Source: Methanoculleus taiwanensis (GTDB taxonomy: Archaea > Halobacteriota > Methanomicrobia > Methanomicrobiales > Methanoculleaceae). From it: a DNA stretch of 64,000 bases. The notes under the pieces are model-generated. The model ran no database searches, was not told where the DNA came from, and saw only the letters and a program-made list of their open reading frames with translations. The translations under genes and the position numbers were made by a program. Below are positions 39,149-62,547 of this stretch, in pieces. The first letter of the stretch is position 1. Each line of letters opens with the position of its first letter. The stretch is from assembly GCF_004102725.1 (NCBI RefSeq), contig NZ_LHQS01000002.1, positions 487,984 to 551,983 of the forward strand. The letters run 5' to 3'.

Positions 39149-39226
39149 GCGGGTTTTTCCCGCCCCTATCTCCCCGCACCGGATAACCTCAACGCGTCCT
39201 TTATGGGTGCTCACCGCAACAGTGGT

Positions 39227-40420
39227 ATGGGAAGAACTGTGGTGCAGTATCGGTTTGCAGATCGGATGGCTCGCGTGCCGGAATCGTTTCTTGAAGAGCT
39301 CTTCTCGGTCTCGGCAGTTCCCGGGGTCATCTCGTTCGCGGGCGGCCTGCCGTCGTCCGCCACGATCGACGTCGCGGGGATTGCGGATGCCGCCCGCGCC
39401 GTGCTGGAGGAGGAAGGGCGGATTGCCCTGCAGTATACGACGACCGACGGCTACCTCCCGCTCCGGGAGTATATCGCGGAGCGCTATCGCCGGAGGCTCG
39501 GTCTTCCGGCGAAGGCCGAGGAGATCCAGATCGTCAACGGTTCCCAGCAGTGCCTCGATCTCGTGGCCAAGATCTTCCTCTCCCCCGGCGACTCTGTCGG
39601 AATGGAGCGTCCCGGGTACCTCGGCGCGATAGAGGCCTTCTCATTCTATGAGCCGGTCGTCCATGCCGTCCCCCTCGAGGACGACGGGCCCGATCTCGAG
39701 GCCTTCGCCGCGCTCGTGCGGCAGCACCGCCCGAAGTTCTTCTACGGCATCCCGAACTCCCAGAATCCCTCGGGAAGGACGTACTCGCAGGAGAAGCGGC
39801 GTGCCGTCGCCGGGATTCTCGACGGCACGGATACGGTCTTTTACGAGGACGACGCGTTCGGTGATCTCTTCTTCGACGGAAAACCCCACCTGCCGGTGAA
39901 ACGGTACCTCCCCGAGCAGACGATCATCTCGGGCTCGTTCTCGAAGATCGTCGCGCCCGGGATGCGGATAGGGTGGCTGCACGCTCCGGAGCCGATCCTC
40001 AAAGCGTTCAACATTGCCAAGCAGGCGGCGGATCTCCACTCAAACTTCCTCTGCCAGAAGATTCTCTACCGCTACCTTGCGACCCACGACCTCGACGCCC
40101 ATATCCGCGTGGTCGCTGAGCGGTACGGCAGGAACGCACGGCTGATGTGCGACCTCCTCGACGACCTCTTCCCGGCCTCGATGAGCCATACGACCCCCGA
40201 GGGCGGGATGTTTCTGATGGCCTTCCTGCCGGATGGCGTCTCGTCGATGGAGGTCTTCCGCGAAGGCGTCCGGCAGGGCGTTGCGGTGCTCCCCGCCGTC
40301 CCGTTCTGCGTGGGCGGCGGCGGTGAGGATGCCATACGGCTGAACTTCTCGACCGCGGATGAGGAGCAGATTACCGAAGGGATGCACCGGCTTGCCCGGG
40401 TGATCCGCGGGCTTTTGTAG
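39227..40420 (+). CDS. PLP-dependent aminotransferase, class I/II, LysN-like
   Basis: A 397-residue fold-type I aminotransferase. The pyridoxal lysine lies in SGSFSKIVAPGMRIGW, with NSQNPSG before it and ISFAGGLPS near the N-terminus, a pattern shared by 2-aminoadipate (LysN) and MocR-associated aminotransferases. The substrate is therefore uncertain. TTTATGG at about 39200 lies about 25 nt before the ATG at 39227, supporting that start over 39203. Confidence 0.88.
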   Translation: MGRTVVQYRFADRMARVPESFLEELFSVSAVPGVISFAGGLPSSATIDVAGIADAARAVLEEEGRIALQYTTTDGYLPLREYIAERYRRRLGLPAKAEEIQIVNGSQQCLDLVAKIFLSPGDSVGMERPGYLGAIEAFSFYEPVVHAVPLEDDGPDLEAFAALVRQHRPKFFYGIPNSQNPSGRTYSQEKRRAVAGILDGTDTVFYEDDAFGDLFFDGKPHLPVKRYLPEQTIISGSFSKIVAPGMRIGWLHAPEPILKAFNIAKQAADLHSNFLCQKILYRYLATHDLDAHIRVVAERYGRNARLMCDLLDDLFPASMSHTTPEGGMFLMAFLPDGVSSMEVFREGVRQGVAVLPAVPFCVGGGGEDAIRLNFSTADEEQITEGMHRLARVIRGLL

Positions 40421-41563: not shown

Positions 41564-41652
41564 CGTCGGACTTAATACATCCAATCGACAATAGATATAG
41601 GATCTTTTCGAGCGAGGGTAGCCAAGCCCGGCCAAAGGCGGTGGACTTAAGA
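41564..41652 (+). repeat. Upstream copy of a tRNA-Leu leader plus 5' tRNA half
   Basis: This ~89-bp stretch is about 90% identical to 41708-41795. It contains the leader (CGGACTTAATACATCC and the GATATAGGATCTTTT box) and then tRNA-Leu sequence from 41612. The D-stem is GCC/GGC, fully paired, and the copy stops at 41652 immediately after the anticodon loop, with no 3' half following. It looks like a tRNA-Leu gene broken at the anticodon loop. Confidence 0.75.
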
Positions 41653-41707
41653 ATTAATACTAAAAAAGGTTACTGGATCTCGCCTTTCTACCGAAGCCGT
41701 TACCGAG

Positions 41708-41795
41708 CGTCGGACTTAATACATCCAATTGATAATAGATATAGGATCTTTTGAGCGAGGGTAGGTAAGCCCGGCCAAAACCGGCGGACTTAAGA
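41708..41795 (+). repeat. Downstream copy of the leader plus 5' tRNA half
   Basis: Second copy of the repeat at 41564-41652, here continuing into a complete tRNA-Leu gene (41755-41839). The D-stem differs between copies by compensating changes (GCC/GGC against GGT/ACC), so the two tRNAs were distinct functional genes or have diverged under selection. Confidence 0.7.
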
Positions 41796-41839
41796 TCCGT
41801 TCTCGCAGGAGTCCGTGGGTTCGAATCCCACCCCTCGCA
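41755..41839 (+). tRNA. tRNA-Leu (anticodon TAA)
   Basis: An 85-nt class II tRNA. The acceptor stem GCGAGGG pairs with CCCTCGC and A follows as discriminator; CCA is not encoded. The D-stem is GGT/ACC, and the anticodon arm GCGGA-CTTAAGA-TCCGT gives anticodon TAA. A long variable arm follows, then the T-arm GTGGGTTCGAATCCCAC. A TATA-like GATATAGGATC box lies about 20-30 nt upstream. It marks the left edge of the accessory region. Confidence 0.95.
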
Positions 41840-41948
41840 TCGCGTATTTGGGTTATAGCGAGCTAAAAAATTTGACACTCTGCAATTCTGCGATTTCTGT
41901 CTTGTAACCTTGCGGCGCGCTTCAAAAAGAAAAACCGAATGTCTGCTG

Positions 41949-43874
41949 TTAATACTGCGCGATCTCAGGATAACTTTGATCTATCAAATCAAACATGCCT
42001 TGGACAACAGTAAAGGCCGGTGCATCATCCGGATAGAAGAACTGCAGCCTTAACCATGTACCGTCTTTAGTCTTTTGTTCCCAAAAGGTTGAATCTGGCA
42101 ATCGTTCAAATGGTTTTTGTTTCAAATCCCTGATCATTGTTTCAAATTGTGGAGCCCGTGCTTTATTGACAGCAAGCTCAACGCTGAACTTCTTCTCTTG
42201 AGGGAAATGGCAGAAATAATACATTACACCGGGGGGCATCTCCTTGATTTTCACGACATAATTTTCTTTGCTGCTCGTACCACCTTTTCGGAACAAAGGT
42301 CCTGCCATTTCCCTGTATGTTTCAATGAGGTTCTCGAATTCGGGGTGATACTGCTTTTGGGCTTTAGCAGGGATCCTTTTTTCAGGTTCCTCAGGTTTGG
42401 TTTTTCCCGGCAGGTTTTCCGCTATTGTGGCAGTACTTTGGTGTGTACCCTCTACGTGTACAACAAAATCGATGCTGGGGCCGCGTCGGGTATATTTCCG
42501 CACATCTGCTAATGACGAACGACATTTCTCCCCATAATAGTAGTACAAGCCAGAACTGATGTACGTGACTTCTGGTGGACATCGGGAAGCAAGTTCATTC
42601 CATTCAGTATACCATGAGCGGTACCTGTCCGTGGTATGGGGATGCTGGAGAATAATTACCGGTTTTTCTTGTGTGATGAGTTGATCGATCTCTTGGTGTA
42701 CAGTTTTTCGCCAGGTACTTCCCGGCACAGTATTAGCAGCCGCTCTCCCGCGGTTGCTGAACATTTTTAGATCATGGCACCCAAGAACCATTACCTTCCC
42801 AATTGGGATTTGAATGAAGTGAGAAGAAAGATCTGATACTCGAATCAGCCGGTTCTGTTGTGGGGAATCCGGATAGGATTTTCCCGTCCAGAAATACTGA
42901 TTGGTTTTCAGATCAACCACAGCTACAAATTCAACTTGGTATCCGTTACTTTTCGTTTCATCCGCAGAGTCAATTCCGATAGTGAGATAATCCGCATGAC
43001 GTGCAAGGTCTGACCGCAGCTTTTCATCGAGGAGCCGGTCACAGTACTCTTGGGCAGTATTACGGAGCAGGGTAAGGGTTTCTTCAGGAGGATGCAGGTT
43101 ATCGCTGGGTGCGGGAAAGTGTTCCGGCCAAGGAAACCGAAGAAATGCTCCTGGTGTTACGAAAAACGCAACGCGATCTTGAGTAGGCCACTGCTGTATG
43201 ATGTCTTCCATGAGAGCCTTTGCGCGGGTAATATTTCCTTCCCAAGGGCCAGCAATGATGACTCTTCCGAACTTCGGATTTGGATCAGCAATAGCCTCAA
43301 TATCTGTGTTCCTTTGACGCTCTGAGATAATATTTTTCATTTTCTCCCTGTCCTCATCTTTGCTCGGATCCATTCGGCACCACTCCCTTTCTTTCGCGTA
43401 TAACCTCACCGTCGGCAAGAACCCCTTGATCTCCGGAAGGAAATCCCGAAGTGTGTCATACCAGGCCCGTTGCTCATCGCGGAATGGCGGTTCATCGTCA
43501 TGCGCATGGATTTCATCGCAATGCTTCACCCAGGCTTCCCGCGAAAACCCGGTTTTAAGATCGGAAGGATAGTAGGAAAGGGCAATCTTCCGTGGTTCGG
43601 TGAAATGCTGGGACTCGTCAAATTCGACGATAAAACCGGGCTCCGGCACGAAATAATCCGCTTCAATATTCCGGGCCCTGACAAACTCCGTGGAGCCCCG
43701 GCAATTCTGAAGAGCGGAGTAAATCGTTGACAACTGACCATAAATTCGTTGCCCATGATAATCCTCTGGCAACGTGCCGATCTTGATCCGGTAGTTGCGG
43801 CGAACTTCCCCGTATATCTCTCGGAGCAATCTCTCTACTGTATCCTTGCACACGGAACACCGCTCGTTATGCAT
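41949..43874 (-). CDS. Large protein with N-terminal PD-(D/E)xK-like nuclease segment, candidate defence effector
   Basis: A 641-residue protein of no named family I can identify. Residues about 70-95 (ADYFVPEPGFIVEFDESQHF; D73, E84, D86, H90) resemble the core of PD-(D/E)xK/DUF559-type nucleases. A CxxC is at C6/C9. The middle part contains YLTIGIDSADETKSNGYQVE and a Rossmann-like IPIGKVMVLGCHDLKMF. The last ~120 residues (YFCHFPQEKKFSVELAVNKA; final FFYPDD) recall DUF4268-type C-terminal domains. It is the third gene of a minus-strand operon, overlapping the second by 8 bp, with GGAGG before its ATG. Nuclease activity is inference. Confidence 0.65.
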   Translation of the reverse strand: MHNERCSVCKDTVERLLREIYGEVRRNYRIKIGTLPEDYHGQRIYGQLSTIYSALQNCRGSTEFVRARNIEADYFVPEPGFIVEFDESQHFTEPRKIALSYYPSDLKTGFSREAWVKHCDEIHAHDDEPPFRDEQRAWYDTLRDFLPEIKGFLPTVRLYAKEREWCRMDPSKDEDREKMKNIISERQRNTDIEAIADPNPKFGRVIIAGPWEGNITRAKALMEDIIQQWPTQDRVAFFVTPGAFLRFPWPEHFPAPSDNLHPPEETLTLLRNTAQEYCDRLLDEKLRSDLARHADYLTIGIDSADETKSNGYQVEFVAVVDLKTNQYFWTGKSYPDSPQQNRLIRVSDLSSHFIQIPIGKVMVLGCHDLKMFSNRGRAAANTVPGSTWRKTVHQEIDQLITQEKPVIILQHPHTTDRYRSWYTEWNELASRCPPEVTYISSGLYYYYGEKCRSSLADVRKYTRRGPSIDFVVHVEGTHQSTATIAENLPGKTKPEEPEKRIPAKAQKQYHPEFENLIETYREMAGPLFRKGGTSSKENYVVKIKEMPPGVMYYFCHFPQEKKFSVELAVNKARAPQFETMIRDLKQKPFERLPDSTFWEQKTKDGTWLRLQFFYPDDAPAFTVVQGMFDLIDQSYPEIAQY

Positions 43875-44286
43875 CCTCTTCCTCCGCGATCAACTTTTCC
43901 ATCTCTTCACGCCCTGCAATCTTCTTCAGCTCGATTGGTTTCCTACCCCTGAACATTACAAAGCCCTCATAGACCAGGACCGCAGCGATCGCCGATGCGT
44001 GGCGGGGGCTGAACGATGGAAATGTTTCCCGGATAAATGAACCAAGGCCGGCAGGGTCCGGGTCGGTCATACTGGCACCGAGCAGGTACCAGCAGCCTCG
44101 CTCGATGAAGAATGTATCAAGGATTGTCCGGATCATCTCATTCGACAGTTCAAACTTGAGATCACCCCACAGGACCAGCCGGAACGGCGGATCCAGATGG
44201 ATCGTTATTGTCTGGCCTCTCCCACTCAATGGCTGTGTGGTGTAACAATTTGGCTGAATAGCCTGTTCACAGATCTTACTGGCCAT
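43867..44286 (-). CDS. Hypothetical protein, middle gene of nuclease operon
   Basis: A 139-residue protein starting at the ATG at 44286, which has GGAGG 6 nt upstream and overlaps the preceding gene by 11 bp. Visible features are a beta-rich front half (QTITIHLDPPFRLVLWGDLKF) and an acidic C-terminus. No family is recognised. Its tight coupling to the OB-like and nuclease-like genes implies a shared function. Confidence 0.6.
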   Translation of the reverse strand: MASKICEQAIQPNCYTTQPLSGRGQTITIHLDPPFRLVLWGDLKFELSNEMIRTILDTFFIERGCWYLLGASMTDPDPAGLGSFIRETFPSFSPRHASAIAAVLVYEGFVMFRGRKPIELKKIAGREEMEKLIAEEEDA

Positions 44287-44773
44287 GCGATTCCTCCGTA
44301 TCGAAGACCTCACCGAACCAGGAATACGATTGCGGGACGCTTAGCATAATCGATTTGTGATTCATTTTTCCTCCCACCAAATGCATGGTTTTGTATCCAG
44401 ACTGCCCGGAAATTTTCACGACATTCCTCGGAAACGTGAGCCGGTAATCGAGGCTGGATTTTCGTGCGAGCCGATCTTCGATCCGCTGGCCGAAATAGCC
44501 CTTGAAGTATGACCGCACCCCGGCCGTGAACTGAACAACGTCGCCCCGGGCAAATTCCCCGATTGCGTCGAATCCGGCCGTGTAGTTGATCCAGATGTGA
44601 TCGGCAAGCGCCCTTCCCTTTACGGTTTTCAGGTTCCGCAGCAGGATGCTCCGGCCGACAATTCCCCTGGATCGATAGATCCCGTACCTCTCGAAGGTCG
44701 CGACAAACCGCGACTTTTGCCCTTCCAACGGTTGCAGTTCTGTCCTCATTGTGCCCACCCCCGGGCTGATCAT
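44276..44773 (-). CDS. Hypothetical protein with OB-fold-like pattern, first gene of nuclease operon
   Basis: A 165-residue protein (157 if the ATG at 44749, which has GGGTGG 5 nt upstream, is used). The segment FARGDVVQFTAGVRSYFKGYFG and the earlier GRSILLRNLKTV show the alternating strands and basic residues typical of OB-fold nucleic-acid binders; this is a fold guess. The TATA element TATATAAAAA at about 44793-44802 is shared in the 60-bp gap with the divergent CARF-like gene. Confidence 0.6.
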   Translation of the reverse strand: MISPGVGTMRTELQPLEGQKSRFVATFERYGIYRSRGIVGRSILLRNLKTVKGRALADHIWINYTAGFDAIGEFARGDVVQFTAGVRSYFKGYFGQRIEDRLARKSSLDYRLTFPRNVVKISGQSGYKTMHLVGGKMNHKSIMLSVPQSYSWFGEVFDTEESHGQ

Positions 44774-44833
44774 CTATCTTTCAGGAAAAACGATAAGTAG
44801 TTTTTATATAGCATCGTTAGCAATCTTAGCATC

Positions 44834-45637
44834 ATGGGGCAGAATACCGGATTGGAAAAGATCGTTCATATCATTCCGCTCGGCCATGAGATTGATCGTG
44901 CTGTAGTCCCGTTTCAGGAGCAAACTCCTTACCGGGTCTACCTCCTCACCGTGACTAAGAATCCTGATCTCGACCAAAACATGATAGCACGACAGCAGTA
45001 TTTTGTCGAACAAGTGAAGGCCCGGCTGGACAAAACTACCGAAGTGATCACGATCAATACCAATATGTTCGAGCTCCAGGACGTGATCAAGACCCTCTCC
45101 GGCATCATCAGGAAAGAGAAGGAGCAGGGAAACCGCGTTTCGGTGAATATGTCTGCGTGCGGCCGGCTAACGTCGGTAGGTGCAATGGTGGCCGCAATGG
45201 GGCATGACGTTAACCTCTACTATGTCATGGCACAGGATTATGCCAAGACCGAAGAAGAGATCAACCTTCACGGGCTCAGTATCTGCCCGACGCTGGACGT
45301 AAAGAGAATTGTAAATTTTGCTTTTGTCCAGCCCGATGAAGTTGGTAAGCAGATCCTCGCTTTCCTCTACAGGAAAGGCAAACCCATGAGAACCATCGAT
45401 ATCTTTGAGGTTCTTCGGGACCAGGACGTACAAGGGTTCGACGTGTTATTCTATGAAGTTGAGGAGAAAAAGAAACGCGGTGTCCAGAGCAGGCAACTGA
45501 TGAAGCTCGACAAAACAATTCTTACCAAACTGGCACGGGACAAACTGATTACGCGGGAAAAGCGGGGGCGGAACGTCTTTGTTACACTTACGGAGTCTGG
45601 CAAGTATATGGCGTGTCTGAGCGGATTGCTGGAATAG
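44834..45637 (+). CDS. CARF-like / winged-helix transcriptional regulator (HFX_2341/DUF6293 type)
   Basis: A 267-residue protein. The first ~150 residues have a Rossmann/CARF layout: VHIIPLGHEIDRAVVPF, then YRVYLLTVTKN, and VNMSACGRLTSVGAMVAAM at the position of the CARF nucleotide loop. The last ~80 residues form a winged helix-turn-helix (LDKTILTKLARDKLITREKR). This matches the haloarchaeal HFX_2341-type regulators as I know them. CARF domains sense cyclic oligonucleotides in many defence systems, but no CRISPR genes are in the window. It is divergent from the nuclease operon across 60 bp, so it probably regulates that operon. Confidence 0.75.
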   Translation: MGQNTGLEKIVHIIPLGHEIDRAVVPFQEQTPYRVYLLTVTKNPDLDQNMIARQQYFVEQVKARLDKTTEVITINTNMFELQDVIKTLSGIIRKEKEQGNRVSVNMSACGRLTSVGAMVAAMGHDVNLYYVMAQDYAKTEEEINLHGLSICPTLDVKRIVNFAFVQPDEVGKQILAFLYRKGKPMRTIDIFEVLRDQDVQGFDVLFYEVEEKKKRGVQSRQLMKLDKTILTKLARDKLITREKRGRNVFVTLTESGKYMACLSGLLE

Positions 45638-45668
45638 GTAATGTGTTGCAGAGCTCATCCCAAAACCT

Positions 45669-46006
45669 TCAGACCATCATAGCACATGCCAAGTGGATCA
45701 ACCCAAGAAATGGGTGCTCATAGCGTTCAAACCGGGGAGTAATCTTCTTGAACGCCTCTATCCAGCTGAAGAATCGTTCAATGGCGCTGCGCTTCTTGTA
45801 GAGTTCCGGATCGAACCAGCATGGCCTTCCTCGCTTCGGGTGTGTTCGGGATCTCCGGTTGACCGGGATATTGCCCTTGATCCCTCGTTTCCGATTGTAT
45901 TGGTGGATCTCCCGGGAATCGTAGGCTGGACATGTGCGGTTTCGTCGGGGGGGAGATATTTCCGAATGATCTCCCAGAGTTCGTCGTCGATTTCATGGAA
46001 GGCCAT
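45669..46006 (-). pseudogene. IS5-family transposase remnant with internal deletion
   Basis: The start (MAFHEIDDELWEIIRKYLPP) is the N-terminus of IS5-like transposases. After a seven-C run and a frame change the reading jumps to the catalytic C-terminal part: AYDSREIHQYNRKRGIKGN, PKRGRPCWFDPELYKKRSAI, ERFFSWIEAFKKITPRFERY and a final HLACAMMV followed by a stop at 45669. The central ~100 codons, including at least one catalytic aspartate, are missing, so the element is dead. Clear terminal inverted repeats were not found. Confidence 0.8.
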
Positions 46007-46191
46007 GATCCTGAATATTATCTAAAGTGATTTATAAATGTGGGCCGACCTCTGATGTACTATCTACTATTTTCCCATAGAATACGCAGTGTTCCGGTCA
46101 ATAATAACTGTTCGATTTGGATTTTTTATAATATAGTTATCGATTTTTGGTATCGGGCAATCTTAATTAATTGCAGAATAAAGCTCATGCT

Positions 46192-47190
46192 ATGCATGCG
46201 CCAGAACCAGAGAACTGTTGGCGGGGTGTAATTCTATTCGGAAAGAATTCTGCAACATACAAAATGGCGCTCGGAAGGCTACTCCTCGATTACGCCTACA
46301 ACGGGCAAGATAAAGTGTCTCTGGACGATCTGGCAAATGATTTTTTATCCCTGTACATTGAGCGAACAGAAAATAACAAGCCACAAATGGGACTTACCGG
46401 GAAAAAGACCGTCACGGAACACCAGATTGATCTGATACGCTGCGGGAATAAATCGTTTGATTCCGCACTTGAAGTTGTCAGGACACAAGCACTTGCTGGA
46501 ATGGTTCTGGTGAAATTCAACAACCTATTTGGTAGGCAAATTCCCCAGCCGTTCTACTCCTTTATTCCGGGAGACAATGAAATTGTGTTAAACTCAAACT
46601 TGCTTCGGCTAGTTGATTCAAAGACGGAGAAGGGCATCTTTGAAAAAGAAATCTTGGGACGATGGGATCTCCTTGAGCATTCCTATGAGAGAACGCATGC
46701 CGTCCCCATTTCAATAGACGAGCGGCTGGAGTATCTAATCAATGCCGAGGAGAGAAAAAATCTCACCCCACTCATCCCAATGCTTGAAGGATACCAGCAG
46801 GGACGGTGTTTCTACTGTGGAGAGCCGCTCTACGACATACATGTCGATCATGTCATTCCATACTCTGCAATCCATCACAATGATGTCTGGAATCTTGTGC
46901 TTGCTCACGGAGAGTGCAACGAACAGAAGTCTGATACCCTCCCGTCCAAAGCGTTTATCGAGAAATTAATCACAAGGAATGAGTATTACATCTCCAGCTC
47001 ACACCCACTCAAAGATGAAATTATCCGAAAGACGGGTAAAACCCGCGATGCGCGGGAAAAAGAAATATATCGGCAATATAACGATGCTTACCACTTCAAA
47101 AGACGTTTTTGGAACGGAAACCCACACTACGACCCTGGAAAAGACAAAGAGTTCATCTACTGGTTGAGATACTATGCTCCAAAAGTATGA
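46192..47190 (+). CDS. HNH endonuclease
   Basis: A 332-residue protein. The HNH/treble-clef site is CFYCGEPL near residue 206, then VDHVIPYSAI (D219, H220) and WNLVLAHGECNEQK, a complete set of zinc and catalytic residues. The N-terminal ~190 residues have no recognised domain. Sequence is AT-richer than the core genome. The start is uncertain; a TTG at 46171 is in frame. It overlaps the MazG-like gene by 17 bp, so the pair is translationally coupled. Confidence 0.83.
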   Translation: MHAPEPENCWRGVILFGKNSATYKMALGRLLLDYAYNGQDKVSLDDLANDFLSLYIERTENNKPQMGLTGKKTVTEHQIDLIRCGNKSFDSALEVVRTQALAGMVLVKFNNLFGRQIPQPFYSFIPGDNEIVLNSNLLRLVDSKTEKGIFEKEILGRWDLLEHSYERTHAVPISIDERLEYLINAEERKNLTPLIPMLEGYQQGRCFYCGEPLYDIHVDHVIPYSAIHHNDVWNLVLAHGECNEQKSDTLPSKAFIEKLITRNEYYISSSHPLKDEIIRKTGKTRDAREKEIYRQYNDAYHFKRRFWNGNPHYDPGKDKEFIYWLRYYAPKV

Positions 47191-47488
47191 CAAGGCAATA
47201 CGGGACAGAATTCCTGAAATAATCGCCGCAGACGGAAGTCAGTGCAGTATCGAGAAGGTATCTGATGAGATTTTTCTCAAGTATCTTGAATTGAAATTGG
47301 TTGAAGAGTCAAACGAATTTATCGCCTCCGGCTCTCTCGAAGAGATCGCTGATTTGCTCGAAGTAATCTATCGGATAATCGAGTTAAAGGGTGCCTCACT
47401 TGAGGAGATCGAAGAGTTGAGAAAGATCAAGAAATATGAGCGCGGCGGGTTTGACGAGAATTTAATTCTCAAGTCCGTAACGAGGTAA
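47174..47488 (+). CDS. MazG-like nucleoside triphosphate pyrophosphohydrolase
   Basis: A 104-residue all-alpha NTP pyrophosphohydrolase. It starts YDKAIRDRIPEIIAADG, followed by KLVEESNEF and EEIADLLEVIYRI, which carry the EExxE and ExxD metal-binding acidic residues of the MazG/HisE superfamily. Such enzymes hydrolyse (d)NTPs to monophosphates. Its overlap with the HNH nuclease suggests a two-gene unit, possibly coupling nucleotide depletion and DNA cleavage; that is inference. Confidence 0.8.
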   Translation: MLQKYDKAIRDRIPEIIAADGSQCSIEKVSDEIFLKYLELKLVEESNEFIASGSLEEIADLLEVIYRIIELKGASLEEIEELRKIKKYERGGFDENLILKSVTR

Positions 47489-47993
47489 TTGCTCAGAAAT
47501 AGCCAGAATGTATGCTCCGCCCTCTTCATGGCTGTGGTCGCTGTGACACTCTTTTTCCCGCCTACCTCTCTGCCAATGCAGCGTGTGGGTGGCGGTTCTT
47601 ATCTCTGGTTTCCCTCTCTGTAGGTGGTCTCAGTCCATACGGTACACCCTGCATTCCCGTGAATACATAATGAGATGAAATTAAAATGGCTGAATTTCAG
47701 TTGAAATTTTGAAAGAGCCTTATTTATCTGGTTGATAAAAACGGCCTCGTTATGTGTCGCTCCAACACGTAACGATGAAGATCTTGTTTCAAATATCCGA
47801 TATTTGGCAACTAAATCGCGATTAAATCCCTATTGTGTCCCCCTTACTTTTACATCGTTATGTGTGATCGGGAATCCAGGGTACACAGTGAAAAGCAGGA
47901 AATAGTGCTTCATCAGATTCCTTTTTCCAATGAGCCTCGTTTATCCCTGTAAAATCAAAAGCCTTTTTTAATTATACACTAAAACTCAAAAAT
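47489..47993. other. Intergenic region with a possible hairpin and repeated CGTTATGTGT
   Basis: About 500 bp, AT-rich in its right half, with no supportable gene. CGTTATGTGT at 47748-47757 pairs imperfectly (9 of 10) with ACACGTAACG at 47765-47774 across a 7-nt loop, and CGTTATGTGT occurs again at 47856-47865. TTTTTAATTATACAC near 47966-47980 is a TATA-like element for the helicase gene. Confidence 0.4.
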
Positions 47994-49958
47994 ATGGCCG
48001 AATTTATCCCTGATCGCCTCCCAGGGAGAGCGAGTAGAGGGGAGGAGCGTACATTCAGTATTCTGAAGAAGTTGCCTGACGACTACCTCGTTTACTATGA
48101 ACCCAACATCGACAACCGACGGCCTGACTTCATCGTGATCGCACCGGATCTGGGTGTTATCGTCATCGAAGTGAAGGGGTGGTACCTCGATGACATCGAA
48201 AGAGTAAGCGACAGTGAAGTTGTTACCTTGTATGACGGGCGCCCGAAGGCCGAAGTACACCCTCTTACACAGGCGCGGAACTACCAGTGGAGGCTTGTAA
48301 AAGCATGCGAGAAGAACCCGAGGTTCTCGCACCTGCTTCACAAAGACGGCCCACACAAGAACAGATTCACCTTCCCGTTCGGCCATTTTGTCATACTCTC
48401 GAATATTTCCCAGGAACATCTCCAGAATTATAGAGGGCATGATCTCTCGGCTGTCTTCCGGCCTCAGAATACCATGACGCGGGACGTGCTCGTGAGCCTT
48501 GAGAATGCATCCCCGCAGGAGATTGCCGCTAAACTGAGATCGTACTTTGACCCGTTCTGGCGCATCACGCCCCTTTCCCAGGAGCAGATCGATGTGCTCC
48601 GCGCTATCATCCATCCGGAGATTATCTTAAGTTACGTCCCCTCATGCGTAATGCCTGCTCAAGACCCGGTGCAATCAGCCCCCGCCGAGAATGACACTGT
48701 CCAAGAACCAGAGGATGAGTACGTCTTCTCCTATGCGCAAGGAGTGTGTGAACCAAAGGTGAGATCACTGAAGGTCCTGGACAGACGGCAGGAGAATACC
48801 GCCAGGAAGATCGGTGATGGGCACCGGATCGCCTGCGGTGTGGCCGGGTCTGGAAAGACGGTCATTCTGGTCGCACGGGCACGCTGGCTCCACGACCGCG
48901 ATCCCGAGGCAAAGATTCTGCTGCTCTGCTATAACGTCTCCCTTGGAGCATATTTGAAAAACATACTCGTCGGCTATCCACGGATAACCGTCACTCACTT
49001 CGATGGCTGGGCAAAGCAGAACGGCGTTATCCGGAATAGGTGCGACCCGGTTACCGGCCTGGTCGAGGATGACGAACATCTTGGTCATCGCTTAAAGGAG
49101 CAACTGTCGAGCCGTGTCGGAGATTTTCGTGCGTATGATGCCGTTCTGGTCGACGAAGCCCAGGACTTCCATCCGATCTGGTTCTCGTGCATCCTTCTTG
49201 CGATGAAAGACCCCTACGATGGCGACCTGCTGATCGTGTGCGACGGCAACCAGGGGATCCGGCCGGTCGGGACGGTCAGCTGGAAATCTGTCGGCATCAA
49301 GGCGCAGGGTAGAACGATTCACCGCGCCCTGGATCTCGATCGGAACTACCGGAACACCCGCGAGATCCTGAAGCTCGCCTCACACTTCGCCTCGCAGGAT
49401 ACTCAGTTTAATGAGGACTCGTTCGGGATCATCCCGGTCGACCCCTACCAGGCGCAGCGAACAGGTTCGAAGCCGTTTCTCGTGCAGTGTGCGGATCACC
49501 ACGACGAATGCCAGAAAACACTGGAGATTGTGAAAGGGCTTCTCGCCGGCAGGCTCCCGGACGGCAACGCTATCGAGGATCTCCACCACGAAGAGATCGG
49601 GATACTCTACCGTAGGGCTTCGGCACCGGACAAAGAACTACTTGGCGGGCTTATCGAGGAGATCCGCCAATATGCCCCTGTTGTCTGGATCAATGAAGAT
49701 GCTTCATCACGGGCGAGAGTGCTGGACGAGGGCATCAAGATCCAGACGGTTGATTCTGCAAAAGGGCTGCAGTACCGGGTGGTGATCCTGCTGTGGCCGG
49801 ATGCGTTCGTACCGGTCAGAGCGGGCGATCTGCCGCTTGAGAACAGCCGGTTCTATGTTGCGCTCACGCGGGCGGAGGATGTGTTAATTATCTTGCACTC
49901 GTCAGAGAATGAGCACGTCAACAGAATGTTGGCGTCGGATGATGTCGTGATCTGCTGA
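47994..49958 (+). CDS. NERD-domain nuclease/UvrD-like SF1 helicase
   Basis: A 654-residue protein. Residues about 15-130 are a NERD domain (RRPDFIVIAPDLGVIVIEVK, with the D, E and K of a nuclease-related core). Walker A GVAGSGKT is near 283-290, DEAQD near 387-391, LDRNYRNT and the C-terminal TVDSAKGLQYRVV and RFYVALTRAED are UvrD-family motifs. NERD-helicases are often in phage-defence loci but also occur elsewhere. It stands alone between the HNH/MazG pair and the GIY-YIG gene on the opposite strand. Confidence 0.87.
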   Translation: MAEFIPDRLPGRASRGEERTFSILKKLPDDYLVYYEPNIDNRRPDFIVIAPDLGVIVIEVKGWYLDDIERVSDSEVVTLYDGRPKAEVHPLTQARNYQWRLVKACEKNPRFSHLLHKDGPHKNRFTFPFGHFVILSNISQEHLQNYRGHDLSAVFRPQNTMTRDVLVSLENASPQEIAAKLRSYFDPFWRITPLSQEQIDVLRAIIHPEIILSYVPSCVMPAQDPVQSAPAENDTVQEPEDEYVFSYAQGVCEPKVRSLKVLDRRQENTARKIGDGHRIACGVAGSGKTVILVARARWLHDRDPEAKILLLCYNVSLGAYLKNILVGYPRITVTHFDGWAKQNGVIRNRCDPVTGLVEDDEHLGHRLKEQLSSRVGDFRAYDAVLVDEAQDFHPIWFSCILLAMKDPYDGDLLIVCDGNQGIRPVGTVSWKSVGIKAQGRTIHRALDLDRNYRNTREILKLASHFASQDTQFNEDSFGIIPVDPYQAQRTGSKPFLVQCADHHDECQKTLEIVKGLLAGRLPDGNAIEDLHHEEIGILYRRASAPDKELLGGLIEEIRQYAPVVWINEDASSRARVLDEGIKIQTVDSAKGLQYRVVILLWPDAFVPVRAGDLPLENSRFYVALTRAEDVLIILHSSENEHVNRMLASDDVVIC

Positions 49959-49985
49959 GCCCCTCATTAGAGGATTTTTCTTTTG

Positions 49986-50963
49986 TTAGTGTCCCAGAAA
50001 CTGGAATCGCGGAACTGTTTTCGTGGCAGCGTAAAACGCCGCAATAAGATCATTTTCTAACTCTTTCAGCTGATGAGGCAGGACTGTCCCCGGCTGCAGA
50101 CAGTACGCAAAGGCGACCTCTCTCCCCTCCCAGGACTTCTGTCCATGGGTCGCTAATCTGCTCCTCATTGTTTTTGTCTGCCCGATGTAGCAGAGCTCGC
50201 CGGTTGCGGCATCGAGGATCTTATAGACCCCGGGCTTGGCGGGAACGTTTGCCGTCTTCTGGTCATCGAACACCCGCGGGTCTGTCCAGGAGAGTGTCAT
50301 CCAGTCACGATCCGTAGGATTCCCGTGCAACCGGAGAGGTGGAAAGCTTGCTCCTCCGGCGGGGTTGATGGCGCCGTCCGGGAGCCGGCCACCGCGTTTC
50401 TTGCTATTCTTGTCCCGCGACTTCAAATAGTTTGGATGGAACCGCCCGAAGTTGCAGAGGGTCGATGCTCTGAACTCCAATCGGTACTGCCACAACAGGT
50501 AGCACTCAAGCCCTTCTCGCTCTCGTTTGACGAGAGCCGGGTCTTTTCCTGAGTCGGGTGAAACCGGAGCCGCCGAGCATGCGAAGTCCATCCCAGTGGC
50601 ATCCCTCCACGCCCAGAGGGACGGGGCAGCGGTGTGCGGGTCGTTATAGGGCATCAACTCCGTTGATTTCCGATACTCCCGGAGTTCTCGCAGCCGTTGC
50701 CGCAGTGCCCGGCCGGTCTGGCCGATATAGACGAGGCACTCTTTATCCAGTGGTTTGATCCGGTAGACGCCTGGCTCGGAGAGTGTCATTGCGAGCTCGT
50801 GCGGCGGTGTGTCGAGGGGCACCCAGGGTGACCAGTCCAGATCGCACCAGTCTGTTTCAAGAAATGACGTAACACCCATACTATCCGCATGTCCCCTGCT
50901 ATTCAATCCGTAGCAATCCATCTCTTCCATGAGTTCTTTCTGGCTGGTTTCAACGAACTGCAT
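49986..50963 (-). CDS. Protein with two GIY-YIG nuclease domains
   Basis: From the ATG at 50963 the protein is 325 residues. Two GIY-YIG cores are visible: GVYRI (65-69) with YIGQTGRALRQRLREL (79-94), and GVYKI (245-249) with YIGQTKTMRSRLATHG (259-274). The conserved arginine and tyrosine are present in both. Such tandem domains imply paired or dimer-like cutting. The start lies 4 bp after the stop of the EVE-HNH gene, so the two are one operon. Confidence 0.82.
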   Translation of the reverse strand: MQFVETSQKELMEEMDCYGLNSRGHADSMGVTSFLETDWCDLDWSPWVPLDTPPHELAMTLSEPGVYRIKPLDKECLVYIGQTGRALRQRLRELREYRKSTELMPYNDPHTAAPSLWAWRDATGMDFACSAAPVSPDSGKDPALVKREREGLECYLLWQYRLEFRASTLCNFGRFHPNYLKSRDKNSKKRGGRLPDGAINPAGGASFPPLRLHGNPTDRDWMTLSWTDPRVFDDQKTANVPAKPGVYKILDAATGELCYIGQTKTMRSRLATHGQKSWEGREVAFAYCLQPGTVLPHQLKELENDLIAAFYAATKTVPRFQFLGH

Positions 50964-50967
50964 TTTT

Positions 50968-51933
50968 TCATGTTTCTGGACTCGCCAAATCCTTCTCAAA
51001 GATGTTTTCTCTGTGATACCGTAAGTAAGGGATCTGCTCAGGTCGGAATAGGCCCGCGTTAGTGTTTGGATCAATACACCACACTTTCAAGATCGCTTCA
51101 TTCAGACTGCGGGATACTAATAGTGCTCCGTTGTCCTCAAAGCTGATGTATCCTTTATCGAAAAGGTGGTCGATGTGTGGAGCTAGCAACAGACCATTAT
51201 TGCCATCAAGCCTTTCTTTATCTGTTGCATCACGCCACGGCTTTACGTGACTTGCAATTAGGTGCTTTGATTGTGTGACGCCTGTCACGCGGCATTTCTT
51301 TTCCAGTCTCTCAAGTTCAGTTCTAAATCGTCCTTGTCCTCGCCGGGAGAGCACTAATTGTTCTTTTTCGGTGGGTGGTATCTTTGGGTTTGCATTGATC
51401 CTAGCTTCTTCTTCTTTCTCGTGAGATTCTCTTTGAAAATCTCTGCGTAACCCGGTGAGATCTTGTCTATCTTCCGCAGCAATTTTAGAAAGTAGGAGAT
51501 TTGCCATTTCGTTCGGCAGTTGAACTAAGTAGAATGTCTGAACCCCATCCCCTGCCTTTTTCCCTTCCTCTATCAGCGGTGAATACTTTTCGGGTAAGGT
51601 TGGTTTAATCTCATCGAAAAAATCTTTCGGCTTGATTGGCTGCTTTAATTCATAGTAAAGCACTTTCACGAGCCAACCCTCTTTCCTCCAATAATCACCG
51701 GCGGGTTTTAGTTCCTCTGGCTTTTCATTTGTGTCTGCAGGGTCTGTTGCTACTCCTACTGCTTTGATGAATGTGCTGGAGTAAGAGAATACAAGATCTC
51801 CGGGGCTCACCTGCGTCATATTGTCATAGGAAACGTTCCTTCTCCCATCTGCGTTGACTTTCGGTGACCACAGGTACCCACCCAGTAACTCATGTTTATA
51901 CGTTTGATTTTGGTTGACCCACCAGTAGTTCAT
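50968..51933 (-). CDS. EVE-domain HNH endonuclease, likely modification-dependent restriction enzyme
   Basis: A 321-residue protein from the ATG at 51933 (AAGGA just upstream). Residues 1-150 follow the EVE/PUA-like layout (NYWWVNQNQTYKHELLGGYL, VSPGDLVFSYSS, IKAVGVA), a fold that binds modified bases. Residues about 215-275 are an HNH_2 nuclease: CRVTGVTQSKHLIASHVKPW, then NGLLLAPHIDHLFDKGYISF. This architecture is known in modification-dependent (type IV) restriction. It is followed 4 bp later by the double GIY-YIG gene. Confidence 0.82.
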   Translation of the reverse strand: MNYWWVNQNQTYKHELLGGYLWSPKVNADGRRNVSYDNMTQVSPGDLVFSYSSTFIKAVGVATDPADTNEKPEELKPAGDYWRKEGWLVKVLYYELKQPIKPKDFFDEIKPTLPEKYSPLIEEGKKAGDGVQTFYLVQLPNEMANLLLSKIAAEDRQDLTGLRRDFQRESHEKEEEARINANPKIPPTEKEQLVLSRRGQGRFRTELERLEKKCRVTGVTQSKHLIASHVKPWRDATDKERLDGNNGLLLAPHIDHLFDKGYISFEDNGALLVSRSLNEAILKVWCIDPNTNAGLFRPEQIPYLRYHRENIFEKDLASPET

Positions 51934-52130
51934 AAGTCCTTGTAAGGAGTTAGAGTGCATTAAATTGCTTATTCTCGCTTAAGAGCGGATGAAAGTACAT
52001 GGCGGCAGCAGGGTGTGTCTGGAACGGATTAAGAGGGCGGTGAAAATTGCTGTTTTGCAAAAGAATCAATTTATGTCTCTCATGACAAAATCGTATTTGC
52101 TGATCACCCATAATTGATTGGAGTTTATCT

Positions 52131-53201
52131 ATGCAGAACCTTGAAGTCTTGTATTATCCTAACTTTCAACCTTCTGAGGATTGGTTTCGGAAATATCTGT
52201 TATTATACGATAGTGTAAGGACAATAGTACCTAAAAACATTGACTTTGAACCGACGTTTGGGATTACAGAGATTGATGATTTGATACCAAACTCCTTCCG
52301 TCCGACGCCCCTTAAAAACTCAGAGAAAGAAATTAAGGATGTTCGTCTCAAGTCGCTACGTAAAGCGTTTGAGTCTCTTCGGCAAAATCCTCCAGAAATG
52401 GGTGTTAATAGAGTATCAGTTACAATCAATCAGAATGGTATTTTCGACCATAACGGATTTGCATGTATTGCAGATTCGAAGATATGTGAAAATATTCGGA
52501 GGTTAATCTTTGAATGTAATTTAGTAGATGTTGATGCTTCCAGCGGGGAATTGCTTGTCATTGATCATAGAGCCTCGGATCTCATAATGTGTAATCTCGC
52601 GGACAATGTTGGGAGAAATCACGGATGGGATACCATTACCGATAAAATTATGCCTTTCTCACTTTTAACCTCAAATACCCTGGATTATCATGCAATCTCG
52701 CGCCCAGAAGCGATGCTAGCAGCTTCAATTGTTCAAACATCTGTTCCTGCCAATATTACCGATTTAACCGTTGAGCAGTATGTTGAACTACGAAGTGATT
52801 ATGCTGATATTCGTGAAACATTTCGAGAATATATTGTTGAAACCGTACAAAAAGAGCAACTCAAGGATATTGGGGACAAAGAGCAGTTAGAGAGCATAAT
52901 TAATAAACTATCTAACAATTTTAACTCAAAAATATGTAAAATAAAGGAGTTGAACAAATATCGCATTCCGGAGTGGGTAGATATTGGAATTGGTGTCGCA
53001 TCTCTTGTGGGTAATTTTTCCGATGATCCTATCCCAAAAGCAATCGGAACATCCAGCGTTCTAGTGCAACCTTTTCTCAGAGGGCAGATTGAAAAGAGAG
53101 TCGTTGGTGGGCATGATATCCATCATACCTTCGCGAACCTTCAGTCAGATATCGATTGGCAATATACGGTCAGACGGTTGTTGCAAGCAGGCTGGTTCTA
53201 G
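52131..53201 (+). CDS. AT-rich hypothetical protein, DUF6236-like N-terminus
   Basis: A 356-residue soluble protein whose base composition is clearly more AT-rich than the core genome. The N-terminus EVLYYPNFQPSEDWFRKYLL followed by YDSVRTIVP recalls DUF6236 proteins; the match is from memory and weak. Residues 215-265 are charged and helical, and a hydrophobic stretch with IPEWVDIGIGVASLVGNF follows. No catalytic motif is evident. It sits between the restriction pair and a dispersed repeat, so a defence or mobile-element role is possible. Confidence 0.6.
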   Translation: MQNLEVLYYPNFQPSEDWFRKYLLLYDSVRTIVPKNIDFEPTFGITEIDDLIPNSFRPTPLKNSEKEIKDVRLKSLRKAFESLRQNPPEMGVNRVSVTINQNGIFDHNGFACIADSKICENIRRLIFECNLVDVDASSGELLVIDHRASDLIMCNLADNVGRNHGWDTITDKIMPFSLLTSNTLDYHAISRPEAMLAASIVQTSVPANITDLTVEQYVELRSDYADIRETFREYIVETVQKEQLKDIGDKEQLESIINKLSNNFNSKICKIKELNKYRIPEWVDIGIGVASLVGNFSDDPIPKAIGTSSVLVQPFLRGQIEKRVVGGHDIHHTFANLQSDIDWQYTVRRLLQAGWF

Positions 53202-53447
53202 TGAAGCGACTCCGGTACCCAATAGGGTTTCCTTTCCATTGTTGGGGAGAACTGTCATCAACAGACTAATTTTTGATTTATGCCTGTAGGATATACAGGC
53301 GCCGCTTCTCTGCTGTAGCAAAGCATCGCCTTGTGCACTTGATAACAGGACCTGCCTCAACCGCGCCATACCACTTTGTAATCACATTCCACACAAAGTC
53401 ATCTTAACTTGACAACTACACCGACCATTTCATTTCACCCCCTGGCC
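53202..53447. other. Intergenic DNA between the orphan gene and repeat copy A
   Basis: No coding sequence is supportable in these ~250 bp. Composition changes from AT-rich to very GC-rich at about 53440, where the dispersed repeat begins. A minus-strand open frame at 53145-53369 is not supported. Confidence 0.4.
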
Positions 53448-53736
53448 CACCTCCGCCCGCTCCCTCCGGTCGCTCCGCCCTCCTCCCGGGAGGAGGGCAG
53501 TCATTTGCGATAGCCCGTATCCCGGGCGTTGCAGTCGATACACCGTGGACGGGAGCAGAGGTACGATCCATCAGCCGCAAGCATGCCCGGCGGAGCCGGT
53601 GATGCGAGCGGCGGGCCGGAGCAGCCGTCACGAAGCGAGGTCGTGCCGAGCGAGTGAGGGCGCCTGAGGCACCGGACACCACGAAAAGAGCAGGGCGACG
53701 TTCCGAAGCGAGCCCCGCGAGCGAGGAATCTCGCCC
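53448..53736 (-). repeat. Dispersed GC-rich repeat, copy A
   Basis: Copy of a repeat family shared with 55633, 56030 and 61181. Read on the minus strand it runs GGGCGAGATTC, GAACGTCGCCCTGCTCTT, GGTGTCCGG, GCGCCCTCACTCGCTCGGC, CTCGCTTCGTGACGGCTG, CCGCTCGCATCACCGGC and ends with the self-complementary CCCTCCTCCCGGGAGGAGGG (53478-53497) and GGAGCGGGCGGAGGTGGG. It codes for no protein; shadow translations share the spurious ALTRSARPRFVTA. Confidence 0.85.
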
Positions 53737-53757
53737 GTCGGGTGGCGCCCGAAAATG

Positions 53758-53913
53758 TTACTCTTCCTCGACCGGATCGAGCAGGATGATCTTCACTCTT
53801 TTACCGACCCACGAGACCGGCACCATAACATGACCGCTGTTCCCGGTTTTGGTAACGGTCTTCTCCCGCACTTCGTATCCGCTGATAGTGAGTTCCACTT
53901 TATCCATACTCAT
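53758..53913 (-). CDS. DUF2080 family transposase-associated protein
   Basis: A 51-residue protein beginning MSMDKVELTISGYEVREKTV (a second ATG at 53907). TKTGNSGHVMVPVSWVGKRV followed by KIILLDPVEEE is the AbrB-like swapped-hairpin pattern of DUF2080 proteins, which are usually found beside transposase genes. Here no transposase adjoins; the repeat copy A does. The protein is probably DNA-binding and could act on the 26-bp palindrome just upstream of its own promoter. Confidence 0.82.
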   Translation of the reverse strand: MSMDKVELTISGYEVREKTVTKTGNSGHVMVPVSWVGKRVKIILLDPVEEE

Positions 53914-53948
53914 TATGTAATCTTTGTATCATTAAAATCTAACCTTAA

Positions 53949-53974
53949 TTATACATTGTATATACAATGTATAA
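53949..53974. promoter_or_regulatory. Perfect 26-bp palindrome between the DUF2080 gene and the ArdC cassette
   Basis: Each half is TTATACATTGTAT, and the two halves meet with no spacer to give a 26-bp perfect inverted repeat. It lies 36 bp upstream of the DUF2080 ATG at 53913 on one side and about 70 bp upstream of the ATG at 54044 on the other, so it is positioned as a shared operator or as overlapping divergent TATA boxes. No similar site is seen elsewhere in the window. Confidence 0.7.
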
Positions 53975-54043
53975 AAGTTTAAATACTCAGCCGTCCTATA
54001 CTATAATAGTGAGCGGAGAGGTGCTCACTGGAGGAATAGACAG

Positions 54044-54307
54044 ATGACATTCAAGAAAATCGGAAGGCTGGCCCTGCACGACGGCCGGCTCCGGGTCGAG
54101 ATCGACACGGTCGGATCGTTCACCTTTGACGATCACTGCCTGGTCGGCGAGGACGGACGGCGGCACGGCTACGCGATGCCGAGCACGACGGGAAAAGCGA
54201 TGAACCTGCACCTGACGGGCGGAGCGCTCTGCACCGTGATCAAGTCGCAGCTCCTGCAGGTCGTCAGCGGGAATATCGGAAAAGCAGCAGTGTTCGAGGT
54301 GGCGTAA
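54044..54307 (+). CDS. Hypothetical protein, first gene of ArdC cassette
   Basis: An 87-residue protein beginning MTFKKIGRLALHDGRLRVEI, predicted mostly beta. No family is recognised. GGAGG lies 11 nt upstream of the ATG, and TATACTATAATAG at about 53998-54010 is a likely TATA box. It directly abuts the next gene and is GC-rich like the rest of the cassette. Confidence 0.6.
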   Translation: MTFKKIGRLALHDGRLRVEIDTVGSFTFDDHCLVGEDGRRHGYAMPSTTGKAMNLHLTGGALCTVIKSQLLQVVSGNIGKAAVFEVA

Positions 54308-54622
54308 ATGTCCTGCCAGACGCCAACGGCCATCCCGAACCCCTGCACAGAGAAGATCGGCGGGCAGCCCCTTAACCCTTCCGGGCGCCCCCTCTCTTTC
54401 ACCGACGCGATCCCGTACCGCGACCTCTGCCGGATGGCCGCGCTCGAGGAGCGGGCGATGGAGATCGGCGGCGAGAAGAACCCGCTCTCGCAGCGGGTCG
54501 CTGCCCACCTCTTCAAGCAGGCCGAGGAGATCCTGCAGCAGTACCGCGACCTCGTCGCAGAGCACGGCCTCGAGGCCTGCGTACAGTGGGCGGCCGAGGC
54601 CGACGCACGGAGGGGACTCTGA
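54308..54622 (+). CDS. Hypothetical helical protein of ArdC cassette
   Basis: A 104-residue protein. The first 45 residues are proline-rich and polar; the rest (AALEERAMEIGGEKNPLSQR, VAAHLFKQAEEILQQYRD) is helical. It starts at the base after the previous stop and ends sharing one base with the following ATG (TGATG), so it is clearly part of the operon. Function unknown. Confidence 0.6.
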   Translation: MSCQTPTAIPNPCTEKIGGQPLNPSGRPLSFTDAIPYRDLCRMAALEERAMEIGGEKNPLSQRVAAHLFKQAEEILQQYRDLVAEHGLEACVQWAAEADARRGL

Positions 54623-54771
54623 TGCCGGCGACCTGCGACGAGTGCGGCGCCGAGGTGCCGGACGACTGCTGCCGGATCAGCCGCGAGCGGGAAGAGTTCT
54701 GGGGTGCGCCGTGTTCCTACACGGTGATCACCGGCTACGTCTGCCCGGAGTGCGGGCACAGGGAGGTATGA
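54622..54771 (+). CDS. Small zinc-ribbon protein of ArdC cassette
   Basis: A 49-residue protein with two CxxC pairs, CDECG at 5-9 and CPECG at 41-45, forming a likely zinc ribbon; CC at 16-17 adds two further cysteines. The ATG at 54622 overlaps the previous stop (TGATG), which fixes the start. It lies 3 bp before ardC. Confidence 0.7.
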   Translation: MPATCDECGAEVPDDCCRISREREEFWGAPCSYTVITGYVCPECGHREV

Positions 54772-54774
54772 CGG

Positions 54775-55740
54775 ATGGTCTCCGTCTACGAGGTGGTCCG
54801 GGACCGGATCATCTCGTCCCTTGCAGCCGGCACGGTACCCTGGCGGCAGACCTGGCAGAGCATGTCCCCGATGAACCTCGCCACCGGCCGGCCCTACCGG
54901 GGGATCAACCGGATCCTGCTCGCCGGCCATCCCTGGTGGGGCACCTACAACCAGATCAAGCAGCTCGGCGGCTACGTCCGGAAGGGCGAGAAGGCATCCG
55001 GGATCGTGGTCTTCTGGTCGTTCGACGAGACGAGGCGGACGGTGAGCGAGAACGGCGACGAGGTCGCGGTGGTCATGCAGCGGGAGCGGCCGCTGGTGCG
55101 CTACTACAAGGTCTTCAACCTCTCCCAGTGCGAGGGAATCGCCGTGGAGGAGGTCGGCGAGGTGCAGCCGATCGCCTCCTGCGAGGACGTGATCGCCCGG
55201 AACGCTCCCCGGGTGATCCCGGGTGAGCCGGCCTACCTCCCGAAGAGCGACCGGATCGCGATGCCGGCGCCGGACCGGTTCACCTCGGCGGAGGCCTACT
55301 ACGCGGCCTTCTTCCACGAGCTCGCCCACTGGACCGGGCACGCCTCCCGGCTCGACCGGCCGGGGATCACGGGGCCGATCCGGTTCGGCAGCGAGGAGTA
55401 CAGCCGCGAGGAGCTGACCGCGGAGATGGGCGCCGCGTTCCTCTGCGCGATGACCGGCACCGATCTGCCGGTGCTCGCGAACCAGGCGGCCTACATCGCC
55501 GGGTGGCTCCGGCACATCCGCGACGGCTCGGCGGCCGACGTGATCCGGGCCGCGGCGGATGCGCAACGGGCGGCGGACTTCCTCACCGGGGGCGGTGGGG
55601 AGGCCTCTTCTTTTTCGAGGGCGGGAGCGGCCGGGCGAGATTCTTTGCTCCCGGTGGTCGCTGCAGAACATCGCCCTGGTTCTTCGCGGTGTCCGGGATC
55701 GCGGGCGCCCTCACTCGCTCGGCGAGGCCTCGCTTCGTGA
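54775..55740 (+). CDS. ArdC-family anti-restriction protein with repeat-derived C-terminus
   Basis: A 321-residue protein. Residues 1-130 form the ArdC N-terminal ssDNA-binding domain (YEVVRDRIISSLAAGTVPWR, GGYVRKGEKASGIVVFW). Residues 170-245 form a zincin-like metallopeptidase with HELAH (181-185) and a distal EELTAEMGAAF (E213/E217). ArdC proteins help plasmids evade host restriction. From about residue 287 the reading frame runs into dispersed repeat copy B, so the last ~35 residues (SRCPGSRAPSLARRG) are repeat-derived rather than ArdC sequence. The native C-terminus has probably been replaced. Confidence 0.87.
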   Translation: MVSVYEVVRDRIISSLAAGTVPWRQTWQSMSPMNLATGRPYRGINRILLAGHPWWGTYNQIKQLGGYVRKGEKASGIVVFWSFDETRRTVSENGDEVAVVMQRERPLVRYYKVFNLSQCEGIAVEEVGEVQPIASCEDVIARNAPRVIPGEPAYLPKSDRIAMPAPDRFTSAEAYYAAFFHELAHWTGHASRLDRPGITGPIRFGSEEYSREELTAEMGAAFLCAMTGTDLPVLANQAAYIAGWLRHIRDGSAADVIRAAADAQRAADFLTGGGGEASSFSRAGAAGRDSLLPVVAAEHRPGSSRCPGSRAPSLARRGLAS

Positions 55741-56157: not shown

Positions 56158-56164
56158 GTAGGTT

Positions 56165-62532: not shown

Positions 62533-62547
62533 ACGCCGATACTCCGC

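Follow-up and report, generated by a model that had tools for sequence, protein, structure and literature searches.

In Islander-type islands, the target transfer RNA (tRNA) gene is split by a tyrosine integrase, and the far end can be recognized by the piece of tRNA displaced to it. Restoration of the target from a fragment is the rule in both the Islander paper (PMC4383910) and a review of archaeal tyrosine recombinases (PMC8371274). Here, we describe a locus of Methanoculleus taiwanensis (GCF_004102725.1, NZ_LHQS01000002.1, positions 487,984 to 551,983, forward strand), analysed as one stretch of 64,000 nt (the window), in which a 44.8-kb integrative element has very probably split the host gene for tRNA-Leu(UAA) and supplied a complete replacement gene. 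Integrase, split target and displaced fragment are shared with the Islander-type islands (PMC4383910). In those islands, however, the fragment in the attachment site of the element (attP) restores a chimeric gene, whereas here an entire replacement gene is carried and both native halves are abandoned, unpaired, at the two ends. The carriage of a whole replacement gene, not a restoring fragment, is what sets it apart from known tRNA islands.

Several archaeal systems resemble this locus in part. As described in the review (PMC8371274), the pTN3-like integrases (Cossu et al., 2017) also involve the 5' half of a tRNA gene, and an element-side promoter reads the working tRNA. There, an uninterrupted chimeric gene is formed and the integrase is disrupted on integration, whereas the present element has an intact integrase frame and a complete replacement. 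The SSV-type integrases (Serre et al., 2002) are likewise reported in that review (PMC8371274) to exchange strands at the border of the anticodon loop, but over 40–50 bp of att identity, such that an intact tRNA is rebuilt; here, only about 7–10 bp are shared. The nearest archaeal case is the tRNA-Thr of Caldiarchaeum (Sugahara et al., 2012; PMC3293823), with a mobile element and a 5' tRNA fragment upstream of the working gene. That working gene retains its native 3' part and gains an intron, whereas in the present element the native 3' part now lies tens of kilobases away and the tRNA has been replaced as a whole. Tycheposons, going by their description in PMC10872708, likewise carry cargo, encode a tyrosine recombinase and are bordered by a tRNA gene. 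No earlier element with a complete replacement tRNA was found in the open-access literature searched, a scope outside which Williams (2002) and the primary tycheposon paper fall.

The left junction had been picked out in a sequence-only reading of the window as a repeat of about 89 bp at 144 bp distance, the upstream copy stopping after the anticodon loop and the downstream copy being a full tRNA-Leu(TAA), and this description was borne out. The two copies (41564–41652 and 41708–41795) are 91% identical over 88–89 bp at a spacing of 143–144 bp (E ~1e-25 within the window). Copy 1 consists of a leader and the 5' half of tRNA-Leu(UAA), and its tRNA likeness ends right after the anticodon loop CTTAAGA (41646–41652). 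After a further 102 bp follows the single complete tRNA-Leu(TAA) called by ARAGORN. It differs from the broken copy in the D-stem (GCC/GGC in copy 1, GGT/ACC in the complete tRNA, as the sequence-only reading had it) and in the anticodon stem (GTGGA in copy 1, GCGGA in copy 2). The complete tRNA is of a foreign type, with D-stem GGT/ACC, anticodon stem GCGGA/TCCGT and variable arm TCTCGCAGGAG. The GC content falls from ~63% before the junction to 45–52% directly downstream.

The missing 3' half lies outside the window. Below, G000 denotes the genome of the window and G000:C2 its contig, Gnnn other genomes and Lnnn loci; positions without a prefix are those of the window. A whole-genome search located the 54 bases of the native 3' half at G000:C2:574453-574506, on the same strand and 44.8 kb downstream of the break. 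It begins with the same core, CTTAAGA, and pairs better with the anticodon stem of copy 1 than does the 3' half of copy 2. A tyrosine recombinase, P0001, abuts this displaced half directly inside the right attachment site (attR), its frame directed into the island. At attR the integrase arm comes first, and the tRNA match starts at the anticodon loop. P0001 is an open frame of 403 amino acids (aa) with a PF00589 match (E=9.6e-19), and the catalytic positions R, K, HxxR, W and Y are near-invariant across the recombinases. Unlike in the 'suicidal' SSV/pTN3 elements, integration has not split this frame; its overlap with the displaced tRNA half is confined to the first few codons, and most matches to homologues start ~20 residues into it. 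The sequence-only reading had interpreted the anticodon-loop break as a scar of integration and expected the 3' half at the other end of the island; this, too, is supported.

Comparison with related genomes, which that reading had proposed as a check, established which tRNA is native. Relatives free of the element carry, beside the same aminotransferase gene, a single intact tRNA-Leu(UAA) of the native type and not the broken copy. Their D-stem is GCC/GGC in nearly all cases and their anticodon stem most often GTGGA/TCCAC; the two native halves of G000, when rejoined, give this same tRNA. Since the intact tRNA of the relatives shares its type with copy 1 and the displaced 3' half, copy 1 is native and the complete tRNA of the window is foreign. 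The earlier account is thereby refined: it is the native gene that is broken, the complete copy downstream of it is part of the element, and the arrangement is a repeated family design and not a one-off. The Rfam tRNA model overlooked a known Leu(UAG) gene in G000, and the Leu tRNA inventory of this genome therefore relies on a whole-genome DNA search, which found no second complete Leu(UAA) gene in the assembly.

The same arrangement recurs among methanogenic archaea. Four other related genomes (G017, G020, G025 and G033) likewise combine a broken 5' half and a replacement tRNA with a conserved arm of 50 bp (ATTTAATACTAAAAAAGGTTACTAGATCTCG). The elements of G020 and G025 (Methanoculleus sp. 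SM3-B2) are complete, with 31.4 and 10.5 kb between their ends and the same integrase, and share a 100-bp arm adjoining the integrase that ends ...ACAGCGCCAAGTG(A/T)ATGTGATA(G/T)A at the core; those of G017 and G033 run to contig ends. The motif TACTAAAAAAGGTT, related to the attP right arm of the window, occurs in Leu(UAG) elements. Of 232 genomes of the order, 28 carry the integrase at E<=1e-60, and it also occurs in other families of the phylum. Wherever the start of the integrase is preserved, it adjoins the 3' half of a tRNA-Leu (UAA, UAG, CAG, CAA or GAG) broken at the anticodon loop. Excluding outgroups, 34 recombinases form one clade (100/100) that covers five leucine isoacceptors, with repeated isoacceptor switches on the tree. 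Homologues of ~35% identity (G251, G252), neither of which adjoins a tRNA-Leu, served only as outgroup.

Both ends could be assigned in 22 elements from several families of methanogenic archaea: Leu(UAA) in G000, G020, G025, G119, G118-C44 and G518; Leu(UAG) in G011, G341, G406, G476, G309, G317 and G359; Leu(CAG) in G001, G044, G118-C41, G159, G161, G169 and G534; and Leu(CAA) in G042 and G138. The GAG target is known from attR only (G132). In all 22 the integrase abuts the displaced 3' half, and the far end consists of a broken native 5' half, a short spacer (31–115 nt in the 19 elements measured) and a complete tRNA-Leu; the replacement anticodon equals that of the target in every case. The displaced halves rejoin to a tRNA-Leu recognized by ARAGORN in 18 of 19 elements tested, the exception being G025, with a 1-nt deletion in its native 3' half. 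In all 18, the anticodon stem of the native 5' half pairs better with the distant native 3' half than with the 3' half of the replacement, and the acceptor stem agrees likewise in G044, G159, G118, G161, G042 and others.

From these observations the locus can be read, with high confidence, as an integrative element from position 41653 to window-equivalent position 86478 that split the host tRNA-Leu(UAA) gene and carries its complete replacement. In the sequences compared, this reading is carried by the two ends with their sharply defined core, by host halves that match each other, by an integrase at attR, by relatives in which the site is intact and by a design repeated in 22 elements; integration and tRNA activity are inferred from the same material. 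P0001 would recombine the attP of the element with the 7-bp anticodon loop, as overlap region, of the only tRNA-Leu(UAA) gene of the host. Of the host gene, the 5' half would then remain at the left end (attL) and the 3' half would come to lie at the right end (attR). Since attP shares only about 7–10 bp with its target, no chimeric tRNA gene can be rebuilt. Instead, a complete tRNA-Leu with the same anticodon and its own leader, directly inside attL, would take over. Expression of the replacement from its own leader is probable because the leader is duplicated in UAA elements; in UAG elements, the promoter may lie within the arm itself or the native promoter may be read through. With no second complete Leu(UAA) gene found in G000, decoding by tRNA-Leu(UAA) would depend on the gene of the element; the replacement is presumably expressed and essential. 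If the element were lost imprecisely, the only Leu(UAA) gene would go with it, and precise excision would restore the native one.

If so, this family discards a host gene and takes over leucine-codon decoding with its own, a natural horizontal replacement of essential tRNA genes by which the host would acquire a built-in dependence on the element. It would also provide a direct route to separated tRNA halves, with a bearing on the origin of archaeal split and disrupted tRNAs. Island finders that look for one complete tRNA plus one fragment would misplace or miss the left end of such elements.

A few observations weigh against this reading. The two leaders in G000 and the ~127 bp of sequence 3' of both tRNA ends are more alike (95.6% and 92%) than a simple model of replacement predicts, and gene conversion or an additional event is therefore needed. 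In G402, the replacement tRNA and attR are present but the broken 5' half is absent, apparently lost, and none was found within the about 51 kb read in G506. Degenerate integrase fragments occur near intact single tRNAs in G010, G013 and G014. Viral contigs searched with the integrase and with the attP arm gave no match, and no excised circle or attP junction was seen. The rejoining test covered the 19 elements other than G359, G118-C44 and G518, which were later additions.

The same repeated leader and 3' flank are what might be seen if the leader and 5' half of the tRNA had simply been duplicated in tandem, with no mobile element involved. This explanation, the null raised in the sequence-only reading, was rejected on finding the 3' half and an integrase at the far end, and it retains next to no probability. 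A local duplication does not account for a native 3' half 44.8 kb away, for a break at exactly the same loop in 22 elements and four isoacceptor genes, or for a spacer past the break that is conserved between species as the end of an element. An ordinary tRNA island, whose attP 3' fragment restored the host gene while a second element, collapsed to about 144 bp, left the broken 5' half, would agree with how most archaeal tRNA islands work (PMC8371274, PMC6563490) and with the repetition of about 127 bp of flank after both 3' ends in G000. It is nevertheless very unlikely: the tRNA match at attR begins at the anticodon loop with the integrase arm before it, several stems of the complete tRNA by attL are unlike those of the displaced halves, and the order of parts is identical in every element with both ends.

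Alternatively, the displaced halves could yield a functional tRNA by trans-splicing, as in split tRNAs, with the complete gene as an extra copy. The break does coincide with the anticodon-loop position at which archaeal tRNAs are usually split or interrupted by introns, and the sequences flanking it are complementary in 7 of 19 elements, with duplex energies of about -14 to -22 kcal/mol. The same complementarity would, however, also be expected of a dyad integrase site, and the flanks of the element in the window pair at -8.6, no better than the mean of -9.7 for arms swapped between elements. The 1-nt deletion in the 3' half of G025 also speaks against a working split tRNA. In addition, no second complete Leu(UAA) gene was found in G000, so that the complete gene is not surplus there. 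Trans-splicing is thus regarded as highly improbable, and a split host gene replaced by that of the element remains the preferred explanation.

A further question is whether the replacement escapes the integrase. Its anticodon stem differs from the displaced stem in 19 of 19 elements compared, nearly always by compensated changes, and in G341 and G001 four of the five differences between replacement and native tRNA fall in this stem, the rest of the tRNA being nearly unchanged. The left half-site of attP is nearer the native stem in 14 elements, tied in five and nearer the replacement in none. In the second large host group (family f8), the Leu(UAG) replacements examined all carry ATGGG and the displaced native stems CAGGG, apart from one mutated case. 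Because of the common ancestry of these cases, the counts are not independent of one another. They suggest that the altered stem keeps the recombinase from cutting the replacement, which is plausible but unproven.

Plain divergence, unrelated to escape from the integrase, could also account for the stem differences. The stem holds 57 of 186 differences between replacement and native tRNAs, against 22 expected by length, but in pairs of intact Leu(UAA) genes of relatives the share is 0.30, about that of the UAA elements (14 of 56); the concentration of changes was therefore not used in support of immunity. Also, element-free genomes of family f8 have mostly CAGGG but in a minority ATGGG. Against divergence alone stand the stem changes in every element compared and the half-site that is never nearer the replacement, and it is a serious candidate for this step, if somewhat short of probable. 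We hold a wider proposal only tentatively, as rather less than an even prospect: the recombinase would destroy the host gene and spare that of the element, whose compensated stem changes would leave it a functional tRNA-Leu while removing the integrase half-sites; extra cassettes of core, arm and tRNA for other leucine isoacceptors (in G518 and in part in G506) would let one lineage switch among five tRNA-Leu genes; and the element would be self-maintaining, since its imprecise loss would be lethal.

Within the element of G518 (L180, G518:C21, contig coordinates 15094-22224), three further tRNA-Leu genes, two CAG and one CAA, were observed. In front of two of them stands their own anticodon-loop core with an attP-like arm; the third has a CTTAAGA core and a similar arm before it. 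They are without a clear native 5' half, and the genome has further copies of Leu(CAG) and Leu(CAA) at other places. These units are possibly exchangeable attP-tRNA cassettes.

The features of the window are collected in Table 1; cargo genes were identified with PADLOC and Pfam profiles and the neighbouring gene with tblastn. Beyond the window, the island also contains an Hma (helicase-methylase-ATPase) anti-phage system with a DUF262-like HEC-05 gene (L009:7551-16979; G000:C2:552550-561978). HmaB and HmaC are full length, and HmaA was read as a 673-aa frame over the C-terminal half of its profile, in a stretch that ends at the locus boundary. By its gene content, the cargo is consistent with a defence-laden integrative plasmid.

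Table 1. Features of the tRNA-Leu(UAA) locus and the predicted element (window positions)
Feature	Position	Strand	Basis
Pyridoxal phosphate (PLP)-dependent aminotransferase gene	39203..40420	+	Left-flank neighbour of tRNA-Leu(UAA) in most related loci, with or without element (tblastn)
Native tRNA-Leu(UAA) leader/promoter region, host side of attL	41564..41611	+	Same leader before intact tRNA in element-free relatives
Native tRNA-Leu(UAA) 5' half, with attL core CTTAAGA at 41646-41652	41612..41652	+	Identical to 5' half of relatives' intact tRNAs; pairs with 3' half 44.8 kb away
Element, portion within the window	41653..64000	.	Full length 44,826 bp between cores, up to window-equivalent 86478 (G000:C2:574461); core positions, GC shift
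Element left end, attP right arm (ATTAATACTAAAAAAGGTTACTGGATCTCG...)	41653..41707	+	85-92% conserved in four other Methanoculleus-type elements
Leader/promoter region of replacement tRNA	41708..41754	+	95.6% identical to G000 native leader
Complete replacement tRNA-Leu(UAA), element-borne	41755..41839	+	ARAGORN; whole-genome DNA search
~127 bp 3' of replacement tRNA	41840..41966	+	Recurs at 92% after displaced 3' half, from G000:C2:574507 on (local alignment)
CARF-domain protein	44834..45637	+	PADLOC CARF3, E=3.8e-95
NERD + UvrD-type helicase	47994..49958	+	PADLOC C3a187, E=1.1e-82
HNH restriction-type endonuclease	50968..51960	-	PADLOC HNH / REase_II, E=2e-22 and 3.2e-19
ArdC-like antirestriction protein	54775..55740	+	Pfam ArdcN and MPTase-PolyVal
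Protease-like domain + HEAT-repeat protein	56165..60601	-	PADLOC HEAT-ARM_XIII, OloA and RT-Protease-type matches
Orc1/Cdc6-like AAA ATPase, start only (full gene L009:6411-7538)	63395..64000	+	Pfam Cdc6_lid, E=1.7e-13

Some minor observations were made at these and related loci. A motif, GGGTTATAG-n-AAAAAATTTGACA, lies at 41849–41876 and also in the tRNA-Leu 3' flanks of L012, L026, L035, L070 and L078. It stands just past the 3' ends of native and replacement tRNA-Leu genes alike in several Methanoculleus-type genomes and has no other occurrence in the loci examined; a terminator, a processing signal or the end of another element are candidates for its role. In G010, G014 and G013 (L046, L048 and L092), the truncated integrase copies lie a few kilobases from the intact single tRNA-Leu(UAA) and are apparently remnants of past elements. 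The contig of L050 (JAHDPQ010000103.1) bears the label Oscillospiraceae; it contains the archaeal integrase and attR, and is probably archaeal and mis-binned. In another archaeal family (L067, G038:C9:12493 onwards), where no integrase of the present family matched, a complete Leu(UAG) comes after a broken Leu(UAG) 5' half; this is perhaps an independent or decayed case. Lastly, the tRNA-Leu(UAA) of L066 (G052:C23, about 73000-73100) apparently has an intron at the insertion position of the elements and was miscalled by ARAGORN as Gly(CCC) with an intron.
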